This document shows positions 11,601-21,329 of a DNA stretch of 33,604 bases, one piece after another. How positions within the stretch are numbered: the first letter of the stretch is position 1; every line of letters begins with the position of its first letter. Source of the DNA: a virus; IMG/VR virus record IMGVR_UViG_3300031660_000023, positions 1 to 33,604 of that record; one strand, 5' to 3'. The notes under the pieces were generated by a model, which saw nothing but the letters and a program-made list of their open reading frames with translations, did no database searches and was not told the origin of the DNA. The translations under genes and the position numbers were made by a program.

Positions 11601-14600
11601 ATGGCACAAACGATTAAACTAAAACGCTCGGCAACGTCGGGCGGCATTCCTGGCACGTCATCACTATCTCTAGGTGAGTTAGCAATTAACACCTATGACG
11701 GTAAAATCTTTATAAAGAAAAGTGTTGGTGGAACTGAGTCTATTGTAGAAATCGGTGGATCTTCCACTCAGCAGACTGCTATCTGGAAAGCTTATTCTTA
11801 TACTGCAGGAAGTTCACAGACTTCCTATTCTGGTTCGGATAATAATAGTCAAACCCTCAAGTACACCTCAGGATACATAGAAGTATACCTAAACGGTATT
11901 CTACTTAATCCTGCTACAGACTATACAGCCAATACAGGTGCTGCTGTAGTCCTCACTGATGCCCCTACTACTGGCGATCTAGTACAGATCAGTACTTTTG
12001 TAAAGGTACTTGGCACAGCCGATACAATCATAAACACCTTCACGGGTGTAACTAATCAGGTAGCCTTCACTTTAACTAGTGATCCAGGCACTGAGGCTAA
12101 TACTAACGTTTTTGTAAATGCCGTTTATCAGACTAAGGATACTTACTCTGTTTCAGGTACTACTTTAACTTTTGGAACTGCTCCGTCTGCTAACGATGAC
12201 ATTGAGATAACTATAGGTTCTCGTAACCTTTCTGTTATTGATGTTGATGACTTCTCTATAACAGGAACTGTCACAGCGACCGGCGGGGTCTCTACAGAAT
12301 GGAACACTGCCTATACATATAGCCAAGTAGGACATTTACCACTAGCTGGTGGAGCCCTAACTGGCGCAGTTACTACAAATTCAACCTTTGATGGTGTAGA
12401 TATCGCTACACGCGATGCTATTCTTACTAGTACTACTACAACAGCTGGAGCTGCCCTACCTAAAGCGGGTGGAGCAATGACCGGTGCGATCACTACAAAC
12501 TCAACGTTTGATGGTGTAGATATCGCTGCTCGTGATACTGTTCTTACAAATACCGCTGTCTTGGCAAATGCTGCTTCTCCTCTGAATAGCCCCACTTTCA
12601 CAGGTGTACCAGCCGCTCCTACAGCCGCTGCGAATACAAATACAACTCAGCTTGCAACTACCGCATACGTACAAGCAGAACTTACTAGTCTAGTCGGTGG
12701 AGCAAGTACAGCTCTCGACACACTTGGTGAGATCGCTACTTCTTTGGGTAATAACGCAGATCTATCTGGTGCTTTAACCACTTCAATTGCGGGTAAATTA
12801 CCTTTAGCTGGTGGAACAATGACAGGTCCGTTGATAATGAACGAGACCACTGCAGTTCAGGTATCTAAAGGTACTACAGGACAGCGACCTTCAGGTGTGG
12901 CCGGACAGTTCCGATATAACACTACAGAAGATAAATTTGAAGGATATGGTACAGAGTGGGGTGAAATTGGTGGGGGTGCTGCAGATTTGCGTCTTAATAC
13001 CTTCACAGGTAATGGCTCTACTGTAGCATACACACTTACTACTTCTCCGCTTGAGAAGAATACACTAGCATATATTGATGGTGTATACCAGAATAAGAGC
13101 GTGTACTCTATCTCAGGTCAAGTTCTAACATTTACAGATGCACCCGATAGTGGTGCGGCCATTGAGATTACGGCGGCGACCGTCGCACCCGTTCAGGAGT
13201 CAACAGACTTCCTCATAAACCAGTATACAGGTAATGGCTCTACTGTAGCATATACTTTATCTGAAGCACCAACAAGTGAAAATCAGACTAGCGTATATCT
13301 TAGTGGTGTATACCAATCGAAAACAAACTATTCCGTTAGCGGAGTTACTCTTACTTTTGTAACTGCTCCGCCAAACGCTACTCCAATCGAAGTAATGGTG
13401 GCAAGAACTGTGGTATATTCCGCAGGCACTCCAGATGATAATACTGTTAGCACAGTTAAGATCGTTAATGGTGCTGTTACTGCTGCTAAACTTAATGCAG
13501 ATGTCTCTACTACTATACTTAATACTCCAGCAATAACTGGTGCTTTAACTACTAATAGTACCATTGATGGTGTAGATATCGCTACTAGAGATGCTATTCT
13601 TACTAGTACTACTACAACAGCTGGAGCTGCCCTACCTAAAGCGGGTGGAGCAATGACAGGAGCGATCACTACAAACTCAACCTTTGATGGTGTAGATATC
13701 GCTGCTCGTGATGCTGTTCTTACAAGCACCACTACTACTGCTGGAGCTGCTTTACCTCTAGCAGGTGGTACTCTTACTGGCGCTACTACGTTTGGTGCTG
13801 AGATGACAATAAACCCTGCAGCAAATAGGAAGATAAGTTTTAAGGACAGCGGTAATATATTCAGGGCAGGCATACAGGCAGTAGATACTGGCGGTCAAAT
13901 GATAGCAACATCAGCCGCTAATGACTTCGCTATAAGAAGTCAATCACATATTCTGTTTAGTTCGGGCGGGAACGTTGAGAGTATGCGCTTATCTAGTGCG
14001 GGTAAAGTACTAATAGGAGACACAGCAAGTCATACTGCTGATTTACTACAAATAGAAACCCCGGCTTCAGGTGGCGGCCACGGTATTCAAATAAGAAGAA
14101 ATGACAGCAACACTGATCAAGGTGTGGGTCGCATTCAATTTGGTAATAACACAGCTACTGATTTAGCAAGCATCTCAGCAAAGACGGATGGGGCAACTGA
14201 TTCGGGCGCGCTTCTATTTAATACCTCTGCTACAGGTGGTGCTATTACTGAGCGTATGCATCTATCTAGCACAGGAGATCTTTTAGTAGGTACTAGTACC
14301 AATGTTAATGTACTGACAGGGACTCCTAAAGTACAAATTGGTTCAGGCTCTGGCCATTCGTCCCTTCAATTTTATAGCGGAAACGGTAACGTAGCTGGGA
14401 TATACTTTGCTGATGGTACTTCTGGTGCTGGATCTGTGGGAGTTGATGGCAGATATCCTGGCTATATAGAATACAGCCACAGTGACGATACTCTACGTAT
14501 TAGATCAGGAGGATCAGGTTCTTTATACTTAAAGTCTAATCAAGATGTAGAAGTAGTATCGGGTAACCTAGTCATCGGCACATCAGGCAAAGGCATAGAC

Positions 14601-15020
14601 TTCAGCGCTACAGGTGGGCCTACTAACGGCTCTGGTACGAGTGAACTCCTTGACGACTACGAAGAAGGTACTTGGACTCCATCATTTGCAGGTGGTACAC
14701 TAGCAGTTACTACTAATAGTGAGGCAAGATATGTCAAGATTGGAACGCAAGTAACCCTTTTTGTTTATATTCAAATTTCTAATGTAACGGATTCGACAAC
14801 CCTATATATTCAGGGTGTTCCCTTTACAGATTCTGGAGCTTATAGTGCTTGTAATATAGTGCAATGCTCTGCTCAATCTACAGGTGAAGCTATCATTGTA
14901 AGAAAAGAAATTAATGATGACAAACTTTATTTTACTACAGCATTATCCCAAGCGTCAGTTCAGCAAACACAAGTTTGGGGTCACATAATATTTTCATTAA
15001 CCTATAGAACAAATTCATAA
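11601..15020 (+). CDS. Long tail fibre / receptor-binding protein 1 (Mtd-like N-terminus, LLDDYEEG tip)
   Basis: An 1139-residue fibre with strong GAGGAGG upstream of the ATG. Residues 1-50 are the Mtd-like N-terminal domain (MAQTIKLKRS, LGELAINTYDGKIFIKK). About four copies of a 65-residue beta module follow (near 62-136, 140-207, 463-530 and 537-604). Their shared pattern is FTGNGSTVAYTL, then (Y/V)xxGVYQxKxxYSVSG, then LTFxxAP. Between and after them are shaft repeats with FDGVDIATRDA and LPLAGGTMTG, and a Thr-Gln-Leu-Ala-Thr-Thr segment typical of fibre shafts. The boundary motif GIDFSA (about 997) and SELLDDYEEGTWTP (about 1014) precedes a tip of roughly 120 residues not similar to the tips of the neighbouring fibres. 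It is the longest fibre in the array and is followed by hairpin repeat copy 1. Confidence 0.8.
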   Translation: MAQTIKLKRSATSGGIPGTSSLSLGELAINTYDGKIFIKKSVGGTESIVEIGGSSTQQTAIWKAYSYTAGSSQTSYSGSDNNSQTLKYTSGYIEVYLNGILLNPATDYTANTGAAVVLTDAPTTGDLVQISTFVKVLGTADTIINTFTGVTNQVAFTLTSDPGTEANTNVFVNAVYQTKDTYSVSGTTLTFGTAPSANDDIEITIGSRNLSVIDVDDFSITGTVTATGGVSTEWNTAYTYSQVGHLPLAGGALTGAVTTNSTFDGVDIATRDAILTSTTTTAGAALPKAGGAMTGAITTNSTFDGVDIAARDTVLTNTAVLANAASPLNSPTFTGVPAAPTAAANTNTTQLATTAYVQAELTSLVGGASTALDTLGEIATSLGNNADLSGALTTSIAGKLPLAGGTMTGPLIMNETTAVQVSKGTTGQRPSGVAGQFRYNTTEDKFEGYGTEWGEIGGGAADLRLNTFTGNGSTVAYTLTTSPLEKNTLAYIDGVYQNKSVYSISGQVLTFTDAPDSGAAIEITAATVAPVQESTDFLINQYTGNGSTVAYTLSEAPTSENQTSVYLSGVYQSKTNYSVSGVTLTFVTAPPNATPIEVMVARTVVYSAGTPDDNTVSTVKIVNGAVTAAKLNADVSTTILNTPAITGALTTNSTIDGVDIATRDAILTSTTTTAGAALPKAGGAMTGAITTNSTFDGVDIAARDAVLTSTTTTAGAALPLAGGTLTGATTFGAEMTINPAANRKISFKDSGNIFRAGIQAVDTGGQMIATSAANDFAIRSQSHILFSSGGNVESMRLSSAGKVLIGDTASHTADLLQIETPASGGGHGIQIRRNDSNTDQGVGRIQFGNNTATDLASISAKTDGATDSGALLFNTSATGGAITERMHLSSTGDLLVGTSTNVNVLTGTPKVQIGSGSGHSSLQFYSGNGNVAGIYFADGTSGAGSVGVDGRYPGYIEYSHSDDTLRIRSGGSGSLYLKSNQDVEVVSGNLVIGTSGKGIDFSATGGPTNGSGTSELLDDYEEGTWTPSFAGGTLAVTTNSEARYVKIGTQVTLFVYIQISNVTDSTTLYIQGVPFTDSGAYSACNIVQCSAQSTGEAIIVRKEINDDKLYFTTALSQASVQQTQVWGHIIFSLTYRTNS
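12414..12548 (+). repeat. 135-bp direct repeat, copy 1, within fibre 1
   Basis: This stretch aligns without gaps to 13590-13724 in the same gene, with 4 mismatches in 135 by eye. It encodes a shaft module running from DAILTSTTTTAGAALPKAGG to FDGVDIAARD. The third codon positions are nearly unchanged, so the duplication is recent or is kept alike by gene conversion. Confidence 0.85.
13590..13724 (+). repeat. 135-bp direct repeat, copy 2, within fibre 1
   Basis: Second copy of the module at 12414-12548, 1176 bp downstream in the same frame. Recombination between the copies would delete or duplicate 392 codons without breaking the frame. A shorter related stretch (GALTTNSTIDGIDIATRDALLTST) begins fibre 4 near 19384-19460. 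Confidence 0.85.
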
Positions 15021-15022
15021 CT

Positions 15023-15054
15023 TACGCCTATCGGAGATAGGCACAGACAGGAGA
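15023..15054 (+). repeat. Fibre-array intergenic hairpin repeat, copy 1
   Basis: A 32-base element starts two bases after the stop of fibre 1. It contains the inverted repeat GCCTATC (15026-15032), loop GGA, GATAGGC (15036-15042), and ends in ACAGACAGGAGA. The terminal AGGAGA is also the ribosome binding site for the gene at 15062. All 32 bases are identical to 17215-17246. No T-run follows, so it is not a Rho-independent terminator. Confidence 0.9.
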
Positions 15055-15061
15055 AATAAAA

Positions 15062-15316
15062 ATGGCATTAACAAAAGAAGTAATTCAAGACAAAATCGAA
15101 ATCGTAGGTGACTTCAAGTCAGTACAAGTAAGAACAGCTACGGTAATTAAAGAAGATGGAGTAGAGCTTAATCGTTCATTCCATAGACATGTAGTAACTG
15201 CAGGTGATGATTACTCTGCTGAATCTACAGAAGTACAAGCTATATGTGCCGCAGTGCACTCAGACGCAGTCATCGCAGCTAAAGTTGCATGGGATGAGGC
15301 CAACGCACCAGCATAA
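15062..15316 (+). CDS. Small fibre-accessory protein A, function unknown
   Basis: An 84-residue protein whose ribosome binding site is supplied by hairpin repeat copy 1. It begins MALTK, like the fibres at 15334 and 17254. It then has a short beta-like stretch (IVGDFKSVQVRTATVIKEDG), FHRHVV, and a helical end (EVQAICAAVHSDAVIAAKVAWDEA). The end resembles the C-terminal half of the 73-residue protein at 21326: both have (V/I)Q-x-(I/F)C, then S-x-x-VIAA. Each of the two lies directly upstream of a fibre gene with the same 20-bp leader. A fibre chaperone or a small adaptor is a reasonable guess from position, not from fold. Confidence 0.6.
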   Translation: MALTKEVIQDKIEIVGDFKSVQVRTATVIKEDGVELNRSFHRHVVTAGDDYSAESTEVQAICAAVHSDAVIAAKVAWDEANAPA

Positions 15317-15318
15317 GA

Positions 15319-15338
15319 CTCTAGGAGAGAATAATGGC
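15319..15338 (+). repeat. Shared 20-bp fibre leader, copy 1 (RBS plus start)
   Basis: The sequence CTCTAGGAGAGAATAATGGC covers the AGGAGA ribosome binding site and the ATG of the fibre at 15334. It is identical to 21561-21580 in front of the fibre at 21576. In both places a small accessory gene ends just upstream, so the leader marks the same kind of junction. Confidence 0.85.
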
Positions 15339-17211
15339 TCTAACGAAAATTACAAATGACATGGCAGAGCCATTGGCGGCTGCACAGCCTACTATTACTA
15401 GTGTTGGTACTCTTACGTCCTTAGCTGTAAGTGGTACTGTTGATGGTCGTGATGTTGCTACTGATGGAACTAAGTTAGACGGCATTGAAGCCTCTGCAGA
15501 CGTAACTGATACTACCAATGTAACAGCAGCAGGGGCATTAATGGATAGCGAGTTAACATCCATAGCTTCAGTTAAGGCTTTAAACCAAGGTGTTGCTACT
15601 GGTGATAGTCCTACGTTTGCGGCAGTGACAGCTAACGGTGGTGTAGTGGTAGATACCATTACAATAGATGGCAACGAGATAGATGCCAGCGGCTCATTAA
15701 TTTTTGATGTTGGTGGAAACCTTACGATTAATGTCGATGGGAGTGTTGTCAGCCTAGCCGATGACTCAGTTAATTTTGGTCAGTTTTTTAACTCAGGTTC
15801 TGGTGATTTTAATATTTACTCCCCCACATCTAACAAAGATATAGTCTTTAGAGGTAGTGATGGCGGAGACCCTATTACGGCCCTCACCTTAGATATGTCG
15901 GCAGCAGGTGCGGCTACGTTTAATGCAGGTGCTACTTTTGGTTCTACCCTCACGGTAAGTCCTGACACTGGTGCTACAACTGCGTTTCTTACGCTAAACA
16001 ACGGCAATGGTAACGGAACTTTATCCCAGATCAATTTAGGATACAGAGGCGACCCAGACCACGGAAACATAAAATATACAGGAGTAATGTCGTTTCAAAC
16101 TGGAGGCAATCAAACAGCATTAACTTTAGCTAGTAACGGCACTGCTACGTTTAGTTCTACGGTGACAAGTACAGGGCTTACTGCAAATGTTCCCACTGGA
16201 AATGGGCTTCTTATTAATAGTGCAGACATATCTACTATTAAAATGAAAAATACTGGAGGTGGCGTAAAGAACTGGGGGTTTGCTACTACTAATTTAGCGG
16301 CGGGAGATTTTGGTATTTATGAGTCTAACTCTAATGGCGGAGACCCTATTACGGCAGGTGCGGCTAAACTGTATTTTAACGCGGCAGGAGCGGCTACGTT
16401 TAGTGCGGGTATTACGGCACCCAGTGCCGCCATAAATGGTCAGTTAAATGTTACTGGTACTACTAATAGTAATAATATCTATGCCCAACAACTTTCCACG
16501 CAATTTGACACTAGCTCGTTTATGAGATTTCACCCTACATCGACTACTAATAGCGGTGGTTTTACTAATATATTCTTTGGGACTGACACGAATAACAATT
16601 ACGGTGTTGCTATTGGCGGTAAAAGAGCAGGAACAAATGGAGTTCCTACTTTTGCAGTAAGAATGCTTAATGACGCTACAGTAGGAACGGAAGTTCTTAG
16701 TATTACCAATGCAGGTGCGGCTACGATAAGCAATGGGCTTACGCTTACAGACGGAAATCTAGTAGTAGCCAATGGACACGGCATAGACTTCAGCGCTACT
16801 GCGGGTACTGGAACCAGTGAACTTTTGGATGACTATGAGGAGGGTACTTGGACTCCTACTATTGTCTCCACTAGTGGGACAACATCTGCAAGTTTTACCT
16901 CAGCACGAAACTATTACACAAAAATTGGGCGACTTGTGACATTAACCACATATATATACAACATTAATTACTCTGGGATTACAGACGGTAATTATATAGT
17001 TCTTGGTGGTATGCCTTTCGCGTCTGGTGATAACTATGGAGGCACCGCTATCGCGTACGCAAACGGTGACGTAGAAAGCCTGTATTTAAACACAAACTCT
17101 ACATATGCTTATTTATGCAACGACTCTAATGGTAATGAGTATTTGCAAAATAATACTAACCCTACTACCACTAAATTTATGGCATCGATTACTTATTTCA
17201 CAGACGCATAA
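15334..17211 (+). CDS. Tail fibre / receptor-binding protein 2 (LLDDYEEG tip)
   Basis: A 625-residue fibre starting MALTKITNDM. Residues about 30-100 are the common fibre shaft module VDGRDVATDGTKLDGIEASADVTDTTNVTAAGALMDSEL (positions quoted in pieces: DGRDVATDGTKLDGI, then ADVTDTTNV, then SVKALNQGVATGDSPTF). The central part is Gly/Asn/Thr-rich with repeated AAGAATF units. The boundary GIDFSA lies near residue 482 and SELLDDYEEGTWTP near 496, followed by a tip of about 125 residues with an Asn/Tyr-rich sequence different from those of fibres 1 and 3. Its stop is followed immediately by hairpin repeat copy 2. The DNA of the shaft module is about 92% identical to the next gene. Confidence 0.8.
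   Translation: MALTKITNDMAEPLAAAQPTITSVGTLTSLAVSGTVDGRDVATDGTKLDGIEASADVTDTTNVTAAGALMDSELTSIASVKALNQGVATGDSPTFAAVTANGGVVVDTITIDGNEIDASGSLIFDVGGNLTINVDGSVVSLADDSVNFGQFFNSGSGDFNIYSPTSNKDIVFRGSDGGDPITALTLDMSAAGAATFNAGATFGSTLTVSPDTGATTAFLTLNNGNGNGTLSQINLGYRGDPDHGNIKYTGVMSFQTGGNQTALTLASNGTATFSSTVTSTGLTANVPTGNGLLINSADISTIKMKNTGGGVKNWGFATTNLAAGDFGIYESNSNGGDPITAGAAKLYFNAAGAATFSAGITAPSAAINGQLNVTGTTNSNNIYAQQLSTQFDTSSFMRFHPTSTTNSGGFTNIFFGTDTNNNYGVAIGGKRAGTNGVPTFAVRMLNDATVGTEVLSITNAGAATISNGLTLTDGNLVVANGHGIDFSATAGTGTSELLDDYEEGTWTPTIVSTSGTTSASFTSARNYYTKIGRLVTLTTYIYNINYSGITDGNYIVLGGMPFASGDNYGGTAIAYANGDVESLYLNTNSTYAYLCNDSNGNEYLQNNTNPTTTKFMASITYFTDA
15437..15618 (+). repeat. 182-bp shaft-module repeat, copy in fibre 2
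   Basis: Aligns without gaps to 17417-17598 in fibre 3 at a constant offset of 1980 bases, with about 14 mismatches in 182 counted by eye. A more diverged copy of its second half lies at about 22254-22391 in fibre 5. It encodes DGRDVATDGTKLDGIE through GVATGDSPTF. Confidence 0.85.
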
Positions 17212-17246
17212 CCATACGCCTATCGGAGATAGGCACAGACAGGAGA
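17211..17246 (+). repeat. Fibre-array intergenic hairpin repeat, copy 2
   Basis: Starts at the last base of the fibre 2 stop codon. GCCTATC (17218-17224), loop GGA and GATAGGC (17228-17234) form the 7-bp stem. Bases 17215-17246 are identical to copy 1 and 17211-17241 to copy 3. AGGAGA at its end is the ribosome binding site for the fibre at 17254. Confidence 0.9.
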
Positions 17247-17253
17247 TTAAAAA

Positions 17254-19008
17254 ATGGCTTTAACTAAAATTAAAACAGGGAGTATCAGTGATTCAGTAAC
17301 GCTAACTTCACCTGATATAAATACCCCTGACATCGATGGAGGAACCGCCGATGGTTTAGTTATTGGTGGAGCTACTCCTGCTGCTGGAAGTTTCACAGAT
17401 ATCGCTGCTAGCGGAACTGTGGATGGTCGTGATGTTGCTACTGATGGAACTAAGTTAGACGGCATTGAAGCTAGTGCTGACGTAACTGATACTACCAATG
17501 TAACAGCTGCGGGTGCATTAATGGATAGCGAGTTAACATCCATAGCGTCTGTTAAGGCATTGAATCAAGGTGTTGCTACTGGTGATAGTCCTACTTTTGG
17601 TGGTCTGGGTGTTGGGACAACCCCTGCCTCTGGTGTTGCATTAGACCTAAGAACAAACGCATCGGCAACTATTGGTGACTTTAGGAATGCTTCCGCGACA
17701 GGCTATGGACTCTACGTTGCCGCAGGAGATACTTCGGGGCAATACGCTTTTAGAGCCGCTGACTACCAGAACAATGCTCTGTTTTCAGTTATGGGTAATG
17801 GAAACGTAGGCATTAATGAGGTAACACCTCTAGGTAAACTACACATCACGGCATCGGGCCAAACAACCATCACGCCTTCTGCTCAAGGAAACCTATTAGT
17901 CCTTGAAGATTCTGAAAACGGAATGTCTATCATTAGCTCTGCGGCAGGAGCAGGGTATATTAACTTTGGAGACACCGCTGATGCTGATGTTGGTATGATT
18001 ATTTATGACCACTCATCGAATGCTATGAAGTTTTGGGTGAGTGCGGAAGAGCGACTAAAGATAGACACCATAGGAAACGTAGGTATTGGCTCCTCTCCTG
18101 TTAGTTGGAGTGGTGGCATGAGGGCGTTCGAGCTAAAAGGATACAGCGGCACGACTAAACAAGGCTCAATAGCATTTGATTCCCACAGTGGCGCGAATGG
18201 TTATAACGTCATCTCCACTGACACTGGCAACATGATGTTCTACAACGGTACTACGAACAGAGCCTCTGCTGTAGAGACGATGCGGATAGCCAGCTCAGGA
18301 AACGTAAGCATACCGACAGGAAGCCTCACAGTATCAGGCTCTAGCACAGGACTAGCAGGCTCTTTTCAAAACACCCATACCTCTGGGTATGGAATGAGGG
18401 TAACAACTTATTCAAACGCCACTCAATACGGTTTCGCTGTTGATTCTTATGGCGGAGGGTATTCAAGAGATTTTACTGTCGGAGTAGACGGCAACGTAAA
18501 TGTCCTTACAGGCAACCTAGTCATCGGCACAGCAGGCAAAGGCATAGACTTTAGTGCCAACGCCAACGCTAGTGGAATGACTAGTGAGCTACTTGATGAT
18601 TATGAAGAAGGAGATTTCACTTTAGTGTTATCAGGAGCTACTACAGCAGGTTCGCAATCTGGTGGTAGTTCAGGAGGAAGGTATACAAAGATAGGAAGAG
18701 TGGTGACTGTTAGTGTAGTTATTGCAAACACTACTCTTAGTGGTGCGGCAGGTGCGTTGAAAATAACAGGCTTTCCTTTTCTAACTGCAAATTATGCAAA
18801 CAGGCCTGCTGTTGGTGTAATGAGAGCATACAATCAAGACCTTGCCTCTCCTGCTGACGGTTATTTTAACCCAACACTTAGCATAGAGCATGGTGTAAAT
18901 TATGCAGTCATAGTACAAACAAAAGACAACGGTACTTGGAGTCTTGTACAGGTAGAGAATAGTGGTAGTTTGTATTTTGAAGGCACAATTACATATATAA
19001 CAACATAA
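17254..19008 (+). CDS. Tail fibre / receptor-binding protein 3 (LLDDYEEG tip)
   Basis: A 584-residue fibre beginning MALTKIKTGSISD, read from the AGGAGA in hairpin repeat copy 2. The shaft module DGRDVATDGTKLDGI to GVATGDSPTF occupies about residues 55-115 and is nearly the same DNA as in fibre 2. A body with NVGINEVTPLGKLHI and NVGIGSSP follows; these are the NVGIG-type repeats of phage fibre and peptidase-S74-type proteins. The boundary KGIDFSA (about 429) and SELLDDYEEG (about 444) precedes a roughly 140-residue Gly/Ser-rich tip. DNA from 18514 to 18554, just before the boundary, matches fibre 1 (14565-14605) at 39 of 41 bases. I see no S74 catalytic segment at the C-terminus. Confidence 0.8.
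   Translation: MALTKIKTGSISDSVTLTSPDINTPDIDGGTADGLVIGGATPAAGSFTDIAASGTVDGRDVATDGTKLDGIEASADVTDTTNVTAAGALMDSELTSIASVKALNQGVATGDSPTFGGLGVGTTPASGVALDLRTNASATIGDFRNASATGYGLYVAAGDTSGQYAFRAADYQNNALFSVMGNGNVGINEVTPLGKLHITASGQTTITPSAQGNLLVLEDSENGMSIISSAAGAGYINFGDTADADVGMIIYDHSSNAMKFWVSAEERLKIDTIGNVGIGSSPVSWSGGMRAFELKGYSGTTKQGSIAFDSHSGANGYNVISTDTGNMMFYNGTTNRASAVETMRIASSGNVSIPTGSLTVSGSSTGLAGSFQNTHTSGYGMRVTTYSNATQYGFAVDSYGGGYSRDFTVGVDGNVNVLTGNLVIGTAGKGIDFSANANASGMTSELLDDYEEGDFTLVLSGATTAGSQSGGSSGGRYTKIGRVVTVSVVIANTTLSGAAGALKITGFPFLTANYANRPAVGVMRAYNQDLASPADGYFNPTLSIEHGVNYAVIVQTKDNGTWSLVQVENSGSLYFEGTITYITT
17417..17598 (+). repeat. 182-bp shaft-module repeat, copy in fibre 3
   Basis: Partner of 15437-15618; see that entry for the alignment. 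The constant spacing and lack of gaps make this a ready substrate for homologous recombination, which would fuse the front of fibre 2 to the back of fibre 3. Confidence 0.85.
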
Positions 19009-19010
19009 CA

Positions 19011-19041
19011 ACCATACGCCTATCGGAGATAGGCACAGACA
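19011..19041 (+). repeat. Fibre-array intergenic hairpin repeat, copy 3
   Basis: Identical over 31 bases to 17211-17241, with GCCTATC (19018-19024), loop GGA, GATAGGC (19028-19034), starting two bases after the fibre 3 stop. Here the AGGAGA ending is replaced by ACAGGTTAAACC and no ATG follows. Instead there are about 125 bases with a promoter before the next gene. Confidence 0.9.
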
Positions 19042-19069
19042 ACAGGTTAAACCAACGCCCAAGGTAATC

Positions 19070-19109
19070 AAAAAAAATGCTTGACATTGCACATGGTAGT
19101 TGATAGAAT
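19070..19109 (+). promoter_or_regulatory. Sigma-70 promoter inside the fibre array
   Basis: TTGACA at 19081-19086, a 17-base spacer and TAGAAT at 19104-19109, one base off the -10 consensus. An A8 tract (19070-19077) lies just upstream, as at the other two promoters. The expected start near 19116 gives a leader of about 50 bases before the ATG at 19167. It lies in the largest gap of the window (19009-19166), which otherwise holds only hairpin repeat copy 3. It would make the last fibre genes independent of readthrough. Confidence 0.8.
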
Positions 19110-19166: not shown

Positions 19167-21329
19167 ATGGCAAAGTCGAAAGGAAGATATTTAGCAGACA
19201 TTATAGGTGCGAGTGGTTTAGTACAAGTTACGAAATCAGACCTCGCAGGTAGTGATGGTGTACTTGAGCTTACAGTTCTGCCTAGCGTGCCTAATTCAAA
19301 GCTAACTAATTCTAGCGTTACTATAGGCGGTACAGCTATCGCTCTCGGAGCAAGTTCGTCTACTTTAGGGGCAATTTCACTAACTGGTGCACTTACTACT
19401 AATAGTACTATTGATGGTATTGATATCGCTACTAGAGATGCCCTTCTTACTAGTACTATCAGTGACGTTGCTCTTAAAGCTACTCTAGCTAGTCCGTCGC
19501 TAACAGGTGTGCCGGTCGCTCCGACCGCTGCTTCTAATACAAATACAACTCAATTAGCTACTACTGCTTTTGTTCAGACAGAGATCACTGATTTAATAGG
19601 TGGAGCTCCAGGTGCTTTAGATACCTTAAATGAGCTAGCAGCCTCTATCAATGATGAAGCTTCATATGCTGCTGGTATTACTACTGCTTTAGGTACTAAA
19701 CTACCTTTAGCTGGTGGAACATTATCTGGTAATTTATTAATGGGTGATAATAATATTACCGGAATTAATAAGTTAGAAATACTTGATAGTGCTGATAATA
19801 ATAGATTAGAAATATACGGTAATGCGAGTAATGGGTTTATATTCGATATGGGTGGAACTGGTTCCACTGGAACAATAAACTTTAATGATTTCAATGTTGG
19901 AATTGGAACGACTCCTGCTCATCCCCTTCATATAACTAAAGAATTAGCAGGTTATCAAGCGTATTTTAACAACGATAATGGTTCAGCGCAAGGGGTAAAG
20001 GTTAGAATTAAATCTAACGACTCTGGTAATTTTAATATGCTAGAGCTTGTTTCGGCTTCTACTGGTTCTGATGTAACAGCTATGGTTGTAAGAGATGACG
20101 GCAACGTTGGTATCGGAACAAATAATCCTGGTGGTAAACTTCATGTTCAAACTAGTCACACTGCTACGGATGTAACCTTAGCCAATTCCAATGAGACGTT
20201 GGTACTTGGAAATTCTGGCACAGGCAATGGTGTTTATAACGCTATCAAGTTTGGTGGTAATCAACAAGATATGTACATCATGTCTTTCAATCACAATACT
20301 GCCGCTAGTAGAAGAATGGGTTTCTTCCTTGGATCTGTTGCAGGTGATGCTGTTGCTGATGAAAGATTATCTATCTTAGGTAATGGTAACGTCGGTATAG
20401 GCACTAGTAATCCAGTATATGCTAAATTACAGATAGAAAGTAATACTGATCAAGGTTTAGTTCTACACTTACAAAACAAGGATCAAGACTCAAATACGTA
20501 TATGAGATATAAGGATTGGGCCGGTCAATATTGGGATACTGGTATTAATTGGGCTAATAATGATTATTACTTTAATTATGGTGGAGCGTTTAGGGCAAGA
20601 ATTACTAATGCTGGTGGTATGCAGCTAACAGATGCGTTGACTCTCATAAAAGGAGTTGGAGGTGACCAAACATCTATGAAGGTGGGTGCACATAACTATG
20701 GAGACACTGGCAAAACTTACATTCAGTTAGGTACAGAATACGATGATGGATCCTCAAGAATAGGATCTTTTAATAATACAGGAAACCAATCAACTTTAGT
20801 ATTTGAAAATCATGCTGCAGCTTCTGGTGCTTGGTCAGAAAGTCTACGTATAGATGGCAATGGCAATATGCTTAGTACTGATACCGGCAGCCGTAAAAGC
20901 TTCACAGTTAAAAAGACTTTTACTGCAACCGGGAGTACTACTACTAACCATGAAATAAATCTAAATACTTTGATAGGTGCTTCTACAGCAGGTACTTTGC
21001 ACTATACAGTCACAGTAGGAGGTTACGCAAGCGGAGGTGCAAACGGTTGTAATATGACCTATACTGTTGCGGGTTATTCGGGACACAACTATGCAGCTCA
21101 AAACTATGGCAGTTTAGGGGCTGGAACAATAGGTTCAGGTTATACGGGTTCTGCGGAAGTAGACGCGGTTGGTATAAGTTACCATCCTTGCAAAAACTTA
21201 GGAGCATATATAGGTAATGGTGCAATATATGTGTATTCGCCAGGGGGCCAAAGATATGGTTTTACAATAACAAATGGCAGCTCACAAAGTATGGGCATAC
21301 TTGTGACAATTACAGGAACTTACACATGA
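19167..21329 (+). CDS. Tail fibre 4 with distinct C-terminal tip
   Basis: A 720-residue fibre starting MAKSKGRYLADIIGASGLVQVTK, unlike the MALTK start of its neighbours, behind its own promoter. The ribosome binding site is weak (AGAG). Residues about 70-190 are shaft modules: GALTTNSTIDGIDIATRDA, then SNTNTTQLATTAFVQTEI, GGAPGALDTLNELAASI, and KLPLAGGTLSGNL. The body carries NVGIGT-type repeats (NFNVGIGTTPAHPLHI, NVGIGTNNPGGKLHV, NVGIGTSNP). The tip (about residues 575-720) is rich in Gly, Tyr and Asn with two Cys (NGCNMTYTV and HPCKNLG). It has no GIDFSA or LLDDYEEG boundary, and no hairpin repeat follows the gene. The stop overlaps the next start by 4 bases (ATGA). Confidence 0.75.
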   Translation: MAKSKGRYLADIIGASGLVQVTKSDLAGSDGVLELTVLPSVPNSKLTNSSVTIGGTAIALGASSSTLGAISLTGALTTNSTIDGIDIATRDALLTSTISDVALKATLASPSLTGVPVAPTAASNTNTTQLATTAFVQTEITDLIGGAPGALDTLNELAASINDEASYAAGITTALGTKLPLAGGTLSGNLLMGDNNITGINKLEILDSADNNRLEIYGNASNGFIFDMGGTGSTGTINFNDFNVGIGTTPAHPLHITKELAGYQAYFNNDNGSAQGVKVRIKSNDSGNFNMLELVSASTGSDVTAMVVRDDGNVGIGTNNPGGKLHVQTSHTATDVTLANSNETLVLGNSGTGNGVYNAIKFGGNQQDMYIMSFNHNTAASRRMGFFLGSVAGDAVADERLSILGNGNVGIGTSNPVYAKLQIESNTDQGLVLHLQNKDQDSNTYMRYKDWAGQYWDTGINWANNDYYFNYGGAFRARITNAGGMQLTDALTLIKGVGGDQTSMKVGAHNYGDTGKTYIQLGTEYDDGSSRIGSFNNTGNQSTLVFENHAAASGAWSESLRIDGNGNMLSTDTGSRKSFTVKKTFTATGSTTTNHEINLNTLIGASTAGTLHYTVTVGGYASGGANGCNMTYTVAGYSGHNYAAQNYGSLGAGTIGSGYTGSAEVDAVGISYHPCKNLGAYIGNGAIYVYSPGGQRYGFTITNGSSQSMGILVTITGTYT

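Follow-up and report, generated by a model that had tools for sequence, protein, structure and literature searches.

In the viral contig IMGVR_UViG_3300031660_000023 of the IMG/VR database, whose entire 33.6 kb was analysed and is referred to below as the window, three of a row of six consecutive fibre-like genes code for a terminal domain opened by the motif LLDDYEEG, and exactly these three are followed by a short hairpin element of the sequence GCCTATC-GGA-GATAGGC. We propose, with a probability of about 0.6, that this element is a cis-acting structured RNA lying in the short gap between the end of a fibre-tip gene and the next gene, usually the small gene phrog_6228, and that this gap doubles as the downstream joint of fibre-tip exchange. 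The restriction of the hairpin to the three LLDDYEEG genes, put forward in a preliminary description of this DNA, is upheld by a pattern search and a covariance model in agreement: the sequence occurs on the plus strand at three sites with zero mismatches and at no further site of the window even when 3 mismatches are allowed, and an unfiltered covariance-model scan of the window recovers the same three copies at 51.8-64 bits, the remainder being noise below 10 bits. The L.DDYEEG pattern is confined in the window to three open reading frames (ORFs; 11601, 15334 and 17254), and no element-like sequence was seen at the ends of the other window fibre genes (11553, 21329, 23900). That the element begins within two bases of the stop codon holds for the shared sequence, which starts 0-2 nucleotides (nt) past the stop, the stem itself starting 5, 6 and 9 nt past stops ending at 15020, 17211 and 19008. 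Copies 1 and 2 share 32 identical bases, as had been counted before, and copies 2 and 3 share 32 by recount, not 31.

Exchange of fibre tips as units

The three window tips had been described as unrelated, which proved mistaken: they share the pattern Y-x-K-[IV]-G-x-V ... G-x-PF ... TY, positions L2, Y5, E6, G8, G36 and P65 are invariant in an alignment of 67 sequences of the tip family, and by this alignment they are members of one divergent homologous domain family. The tip profile matches the C-terminal domain of the Dettilon tailspike (PDB 6f7d/6f7k; E = 5e-6), and the model of tip 2 superposes on 6f7k with a template modelling (TM) score of 0.70; however, the Dettilon domain is the end of a tailspike and not of a repeat-bearing fibre, the identity is about 15%, and the Foldseek E-value is 0.03. 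The position at the fibre end, together with this tailspike-like domain, suggests that the tip is the receptor-facing part of the protein.

Exchange was analysed over 78 non-redundant loci from the IMG/VR viral contigs compared with the window (designated here by L numbers for loci and G numbers for records), with identities taken from simple global alignments; rows such as L063/L102 (shaft 0.03) and those lacking a scored shaft were disregarded in the pair tables as contig-edge artefacts. Tip and shaft identity show a correlation of 0.04 over 2346 pairs. A tip shared at 94-98% DNA identity by L059, L087 and L116 sits on shafts with 48-57% identity, which is the background level; L019/L090 and L051/L060 likewise combine a shared tip with unrelated shafts, and over all three same-tip groups the tips range from 91 to 98% nucleotide identity and the shafts from 46 to 57%. 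Conversely, L058 and L082 are 78-95% identical in shaft end, element and downstream gene while their tips are unrelated to each other, and L116 matches window fibre 3 over the shaft end (82%) while bearing a different tip. The breakpoints of identity fall at the DDYEEGTW codons on one side and at the stop codon and element on the other. These comparisons show that tips have been exchanged as units between these two boundaries, as the preliminary description had supposed in calling the tip a swappable cassette; the boundary comparison that it recommended reveals exchange rather than co-evolution of tip and shaft. Two candidate cases were dropped, namely L044/L101, in which L044 lacks a scorable shaft, and L499 as an example for tip 3, in which the shaft end is also kept. 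No close relative of tip 1 was found in IMG/VR.

The upstream joint, comprising the DDYEEGTW codons, is conserved as DNA. Relative to the background of the same genes, TAT is used there in 94% versus 56%, ACT in 94% versus 38% and GAG in 81-84% versus 36%; at the YTKIG motif inside the tip, which is equally conserved, synonymous choice is near background. Among the wider sample of DDYEEGTW ends considered below, the codon excess at this joint is of moderate size at ends with a hairpin behind them and all but vanishes at ends without one.

No correlation links the hairpin variant to the tip, the shaft or the downstream gene (r from -0.02 to 0.07), and stems differ within two of the three same-tip groups (L059/L087/L116 and L019/L090), agreeing only in L051/L060. 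Since the variants are uncorrelated and differing stems follow the same tip, both sides of the hairpin are joints, and the hairpin accompanies tips by its presence and not by its identity. Its earlier interpretation as the mark of the cassette end is accordingly retained for a fixed downstream boundary and abandoned for a specific variant tied to a specific tip. In some events tip and element have moved jointly, as seen from copies 2 and 3 of the window, at which phrog_6228 is not the next gene, and by L044, L144 and L154, which bear three different tips, each followed by a window-class hairpin and then by a second hairpin of another class. In these three related cases the stem of the first hairpin contains mismatches, as might be expected if selection were relaxed beside an intact copy.

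Homing-type endonuclease genes (HNH_3/NUMOD4) were observed exactly between the element and phrog_6228 in L045, L052, L060, L076, L086 and L133, where they use the ribosome binding site of the element; the one in L045 opens with the first residues of phrog_6228 (MALEKVVTE). These insertions mark the joint as a landing site too, and homing endonucleases may drag adjacent tips along by co-conversion.

Distribution and structure of the hairpin

The contigs of IMG/VR are fragments, the contig counts given here are lower bounds, and close relatives of the window may have been omitted from the searched set. No contig besides the window contains the exact 24-mer of the element, which is private to the window phage because stems vary, and a plain inverted-repeat search of IMG/VR returned mainly chance matches in addition to L019 and L026. 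Patterns combining the flanks with a free stem recovered at least about 100 further IMG/VR contigs with the element. Every copy with a readable upstream gene (101 of 101, counting the three window copies) follows a gene with an LDDYEEG-type motif 99-138 amino acids (aa) before its stop; a preponderance of copies away from such ends, which would have told against the preliminary description, is thus not observed. The gene 3' of the element is nearly always phrog_6228 (about 84 aa), across a gap of usually 9-12 nt and in a few cases 37-38 nt. This gene, which is widespread in marine phages beside fibre genes, was found in no fewer than 588 contigs of IMG/VR and in at least 68 records of named phages; its model is a confident beta3-alpha2 fold (predicted local distance difference test score, pLDDT, 93.8), a fold search returned no significant solved relative, and a kinship with Erf/Rad52-like proteins, for which the viral matches were weak (E 0.05-0.2), was not used as evidence. 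Nearly all records tested carry one copy of the element, the three of the window being unusual. Among the matches listed from bacterial and archaeal genome contigs none was genuine (98 hits, all chance), a blastn search of INPHARED with the element gave chance matches at its ATG end only, and Rfam searches with the stretch of the window and with 12 related loci gave no credible match at E-values up to 1; the hairpin belongs to no Rfam family.

Covariation was measured on 28 distinct window-class sequences, in counts that ignore shared descent. The invariance of the stem base and 3' flank in the first set is partly imposed by the search pattern; the stem was later freed. Six of the seven stem pairs have changed on both sides with pairing kept, 93% of cells are paired, and double-change cells number 18 as against 3.1 in shuffled sets, with none of 500 shuffles matching any measure. 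The signal vanishes when the partner is slid by one base, and RNAalifold recovers the identical helix. Compensatory changes extend to the stem base in the free-stem scan (TGCTAG..CTAGCA in L140; GTCTATC..GATAGAC in L143). By this covariation the hairpin is shown to be maintained as a structure through selection on pairing. The stems of distinct hairpins contain 20 G-U as against 4 A-C juxtapositions, the loop-closing pair excluded, from which excess a sense RNA rather than a DNA cruciform would be expected to be the folding form; the structure is thus probably selected at the RNA level.

The same plan, namely a free stem and an RGA loop followed by RGACA, extends well beyond the window class, as judged from two samples picked independently of the hairpin (gaps upstream of phrog_6228, and DDYEEGTW ends). 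Of 89 distinct gaps preceding phrog_6228, 75 contain a strong hairpin, and the loop is GGA in 59 of these hairpins (shuffles 1.8%). Within 48 nt past DDYEEGTW ends, an RGA-loop hairpin is present in 40 of 112 cases (36%) versus 12 of 598 (2%) for other long genes of the same contigs (p = 5e-25; shuffles 0.8%). The stems are wholly different (CCTCAAG, ACCTGAT, TACCTAG, CTAGCA and many others, with more than 60 distinct stem cores), the loop is constantly RGA(Y), and the 3' flank is mostly (A/C)RGACA. Loops take the forms GGA, AGA, GGAY and UGGAYU, with GGA in 69 and AGA in 15 of 84 unique hairpins. Cultured marine phages with an element of this plan include Methylophilales phage Melnitz-3 (OM43 host) and Roseobacter phage CRP-804 (Paracoccaceae host). 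In the cyanophages L255, L257, L258 and L269 the loop of the hairpin itself contains the Shine-Dalgarno (SD) GGA of phrog_6228, near the start codon, and in a subclass formed by L274, L337, L073 and L259 a second hairpin, GTGGC..GCCAC, and then GATAAA follow 3' of the first. A pseudoknot of the loop UGGACU with a downstream AGUCCA is possible in L318, L345, L302 and L303; it is possible neither in the AGA-loop loci L279 and L331 nor in the window class, and is thus not general.

Proposed role of the element and its alternatives

The element had been said to supply the next ribosome binding site, which is true of copies 1 and 2, whose GGAG lies 8 nt 5' of the ATG at 15062 and at 17254, respectively, and not of copy 3, which has no SD (ACAGACAACAGG); the next gene there starts at 19167 and is preceded by its own promoter-like site. 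In L499, which has the tip most closely related to tip 3, an element, an SD and phrog_6228 come after the tip, and the window tip 3 loses the SD immediately past ACAGACA. A promoter-like site (11/12) is present 47 nt 3' of the stem of copy 3 only, copies 1 and 2 having no strong promoter-like site. For the exchange of whole tips, bounded by the DDYEEGTW codons on one side and the stop and element on the other, we propose as the most likely process ordinary homologous recombination between co-infecting phages, which the SbcCD-like, 5'-3' exonuclease and helicase genes of the window could serve. Pairing within the hairpin is under selection, its RGA loop and RGACA flank staying constant. In the mRNA the hairpin and the unpaired RGACA/SD stretch would together act as a site of recognition and translation start, making the output of the downstream gene insensitive to which tip has been acquired. 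A putative trans-acting factor is likely to bind the RGA loop, a binder being favoured because simple insulation needs no constant loop and flank. Tip and element would also have been multiplied as one piece, giving the three units of the window, two of them without phrog_6228 downstream. A part for the hairpin itself as agent of exchange is not supported; its covariation points to a function of the structure, which homologous recombination does not require. 

Several observations weigh against a cis-acting structured RNA of this kind. A recognisable hairpin is absent from 72 of the 112 DDYEEGTW ends of the wider sample, and there are pelagiphages with tip and phrog_6228 but without a hairpin, from which it follows that the hairpin is inessential to the arrangement. 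The stem of copy 3 is perfect despite the lack of both an SD and an adjoining downstream gene, and G-T pairing is tolerated in single-stranded DNA too, which leaves room for a role in that form.

Were the element a mere homology patch or linker, conserved DNA flanking the tip would give recombination its footing and the shape of the hairpin would be incidental. Both handles are indeed conserved as DNA, including the constant ACAGACAGGAG flank, and chimeric junctions resume at GACAG (L073, L111, L467); but homology would keep sequence and not pairing, whereas the stem changes by compensatory pairs under a constant loop and entirely different stem sequences occupy the same position, so that we hold this explanation to be unlikely. 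A recombination machine might instead recognise the hairpin, as with the hairpins of diversity-generating retroelements (DGRs), attC sites or the ends of IS200/IS605, and direct cassette exchange or insertion. The target hairpins of DGRs follow the same plan of a free stem and conserved loop after the stop of a variable gene (PMC3240598), and tandem double elements together with the three units of the window suggest insertion of tip plus element. Yet no reverse transcriptase (PF00078) was detected in 25 records including the window, a weak absence as the records are fragments, no recombinase gene was seen near the fibres, the loop is RGAY and not GRNA, the G-U excess favours RNA, and same-tip pairs often have different hairpins, all of which makes such a machine quite improbable. 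To a similarly small extent we would entertain a bolder extension, by which aquatic phages would have a general system for exchanging tip cassettes and the hairpin would be its dedicated boundary, read by structure, with a putative factor recognising the RGA loop, whether in RNA or in single-stranded DNA, and actively promoting the capture of tip-element units such as the three of the window and the doubles of L044, L144 and L154.

The GGA of most loops and a second GGA(G), which forms the SD some 17 nt from the loop, are what would be expected if the hairpin were the binding site of a CsrA/RsmA-type regulator repressing the downstream gene, and one related record, G015 (that of L287), has a CsrA homologue (46800-46943, minus strand). 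An AGA loop is poorly tolerated by CsrA, and is present in the remaining 15 of the 84 unique hairpins; a csrA gene was found in 1 of 27 records, and regulation of this type appears a highly doubtful proposition. The stable hairpin directly past a stop codon also recalls an ordinary intrinsic terminator or a stabiliser of the 3' end of the fibre mRNA; this is the least credible possibility, one that we regard as close to negligible, given that the T run required 3' of the hairpin is absent from the plus strand at the copies, a terminator scan found none on that strand at the three copies (with one minus-strand match at copy 3), the conservation of loop and 3' flank would go unexplained, and the SD of the next gene is built in.

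Gene context and relation to known systems

The features of the fibre region are collected in Table 1. The window further codes for virion proteins (tape measure, distal tail, J-like) and, on the minus strand between 24490 and 33535, for SbcD-like, 5'-3' exonuclease, PDDEXK nuclease, helicase, PhoH and B12-type ribonucleotide reductase proteins. The best named match of SbcD is to Vibrio phages of the T5 group (44% identity) and that of the distal tail protein to T5-group phages (29%); its tail and replication/recombination gene content marks the window phage as a distant relative of T5-like siphoviruses.

Table 1. Fibre genes, tip domains, hairpin elements and adjoining features of the window
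Feature	Position	Strand	Basis and remarks
Fibre gene 1, 1139 aa, exchangeable C-terminal tip	11601..15020	+	ORF; PHROG tail fibre matches and DUF4183 repeats
Tip 1 upstream boundary, codons for LLDDYEEGTWTP	14646..14681	+	Codons conserved as DNA among exchange partners
Tip domain 1, 124 aa, LLDDYEEG to stop	14646..15017	+	Alignment; profile match to Dettilon tailspike C-terminal domain
Element copy 1, CAUAACUUAC + hairpin 15026-15042 + ACAGACAGGAG; SD GGAG 15050-15053	15016..15054	+	51.8 bits; -9.7 kcal/mol, z -3.0
Small conserved gene phrog_6228, 84 aa, usual 3' neighbour of element	15062..15316	+	PHROG match
Fibre gene 2, 625 aa	15334..17211	+	ORF; PHROG match
Tip domain 2, 129 aa, modelled beta-rich domain	16822..17208	+	Alignment; model pLDDT 88.5; 6f7k TM 0.70
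Element copy 2, hairpin 17218-17234; SD GGAG 17242-17245 serving fibre gene at 17254	17208..17246	+	64 bits
Fibre gene 3, 584 aa; 82% identity with L116 (different tip) over the shaft end	17254..19008	+	ORF; identity comparison
Tip domain 3, 139 aa; close relative L499, 81% aa	18589..19005	+	Alignment; relative search
Element copy 3, hairpin 19018-19034, perfect stem, without SD, without phrog_6228 3'	19008..19046	+	55.5 bits; z -3.9
Strong sigma-70-like promoter, TTGACA-17-TAGAAT, TG 5' of TAGAAT box, outside element proper	19081..19109	+	Promoter scan; precedes fibre gene 19167-21329

The earlier statement that no named system of this kind exists overlooked the promoter-early stem-loops (PeSLs) and the general mosaicism of fibre tips, although the element falls under neither definition. 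PeSLs of T4-type phages (Arbiol 2010, Comeau 2014) are described as an early promoter combined with a terminator-like stem-loop, short intergenic modules linked to gene shuffling between related phages (cited in PMC4503421); the present element similarly sits at tip-exchange breakpoints, but copies 1 and 2 lack a promoter, a U tract is missing, the loop is fixed as RGA, and the element keeps to a single location behind fibre tips. The hairpin/cruciform of the DGR of Bordetella phage BPP-1, with a 4-nt GRNA loop and a GC-rich stem of 7-10 bp, lies 3' of the variable region (PMC3240598), and resembles the element in its position just past the stop of a variable receptor-binding gene, its free stem and its conserved loop; the element differs in its loop and in the lack of a detected reverse transcriptase, noted above, and in that diversity arises here by replacement of whole tips. 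Reports on mosaic tail fibre tips and fibre-chaperone exchange (PMC10684548, PMC10579305) likewise concern a variable C-terminal receptor-binding domain swapped between phages, with a small gene adjoining the fibre; in contrast to the fixed motif and hairpin found here, the parts of these reports consulted describe no structured element at the joint. The manA and wcaG motifs (Weinberg 2010) are structured RNAs of marine metagenomes and T4-like cyanophages (PMC2864571), from which the element differs in being a single small hairpin matched by no Rfam model.

Fibre tips set which cells a phage can infect, and the joints of natural swaps are rarely visible, whereas here both can be seen, one as a run of codons under conservation at the DNA level and the other as a hairpin whose stem covaries, in at least about 100 contigs of the window class and in many more of the same plan. 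The arrangement could therefore be used as a marker for receptor-binding tips in metagenomes, and its exchange events form a natural series that can be dated and mapped. As the element would be a structured RNA outside Rfam with a constant loop, a binding partner can be sought, and the presence of three units of tip and hairpin in one phage makes tip exchange directly testable.

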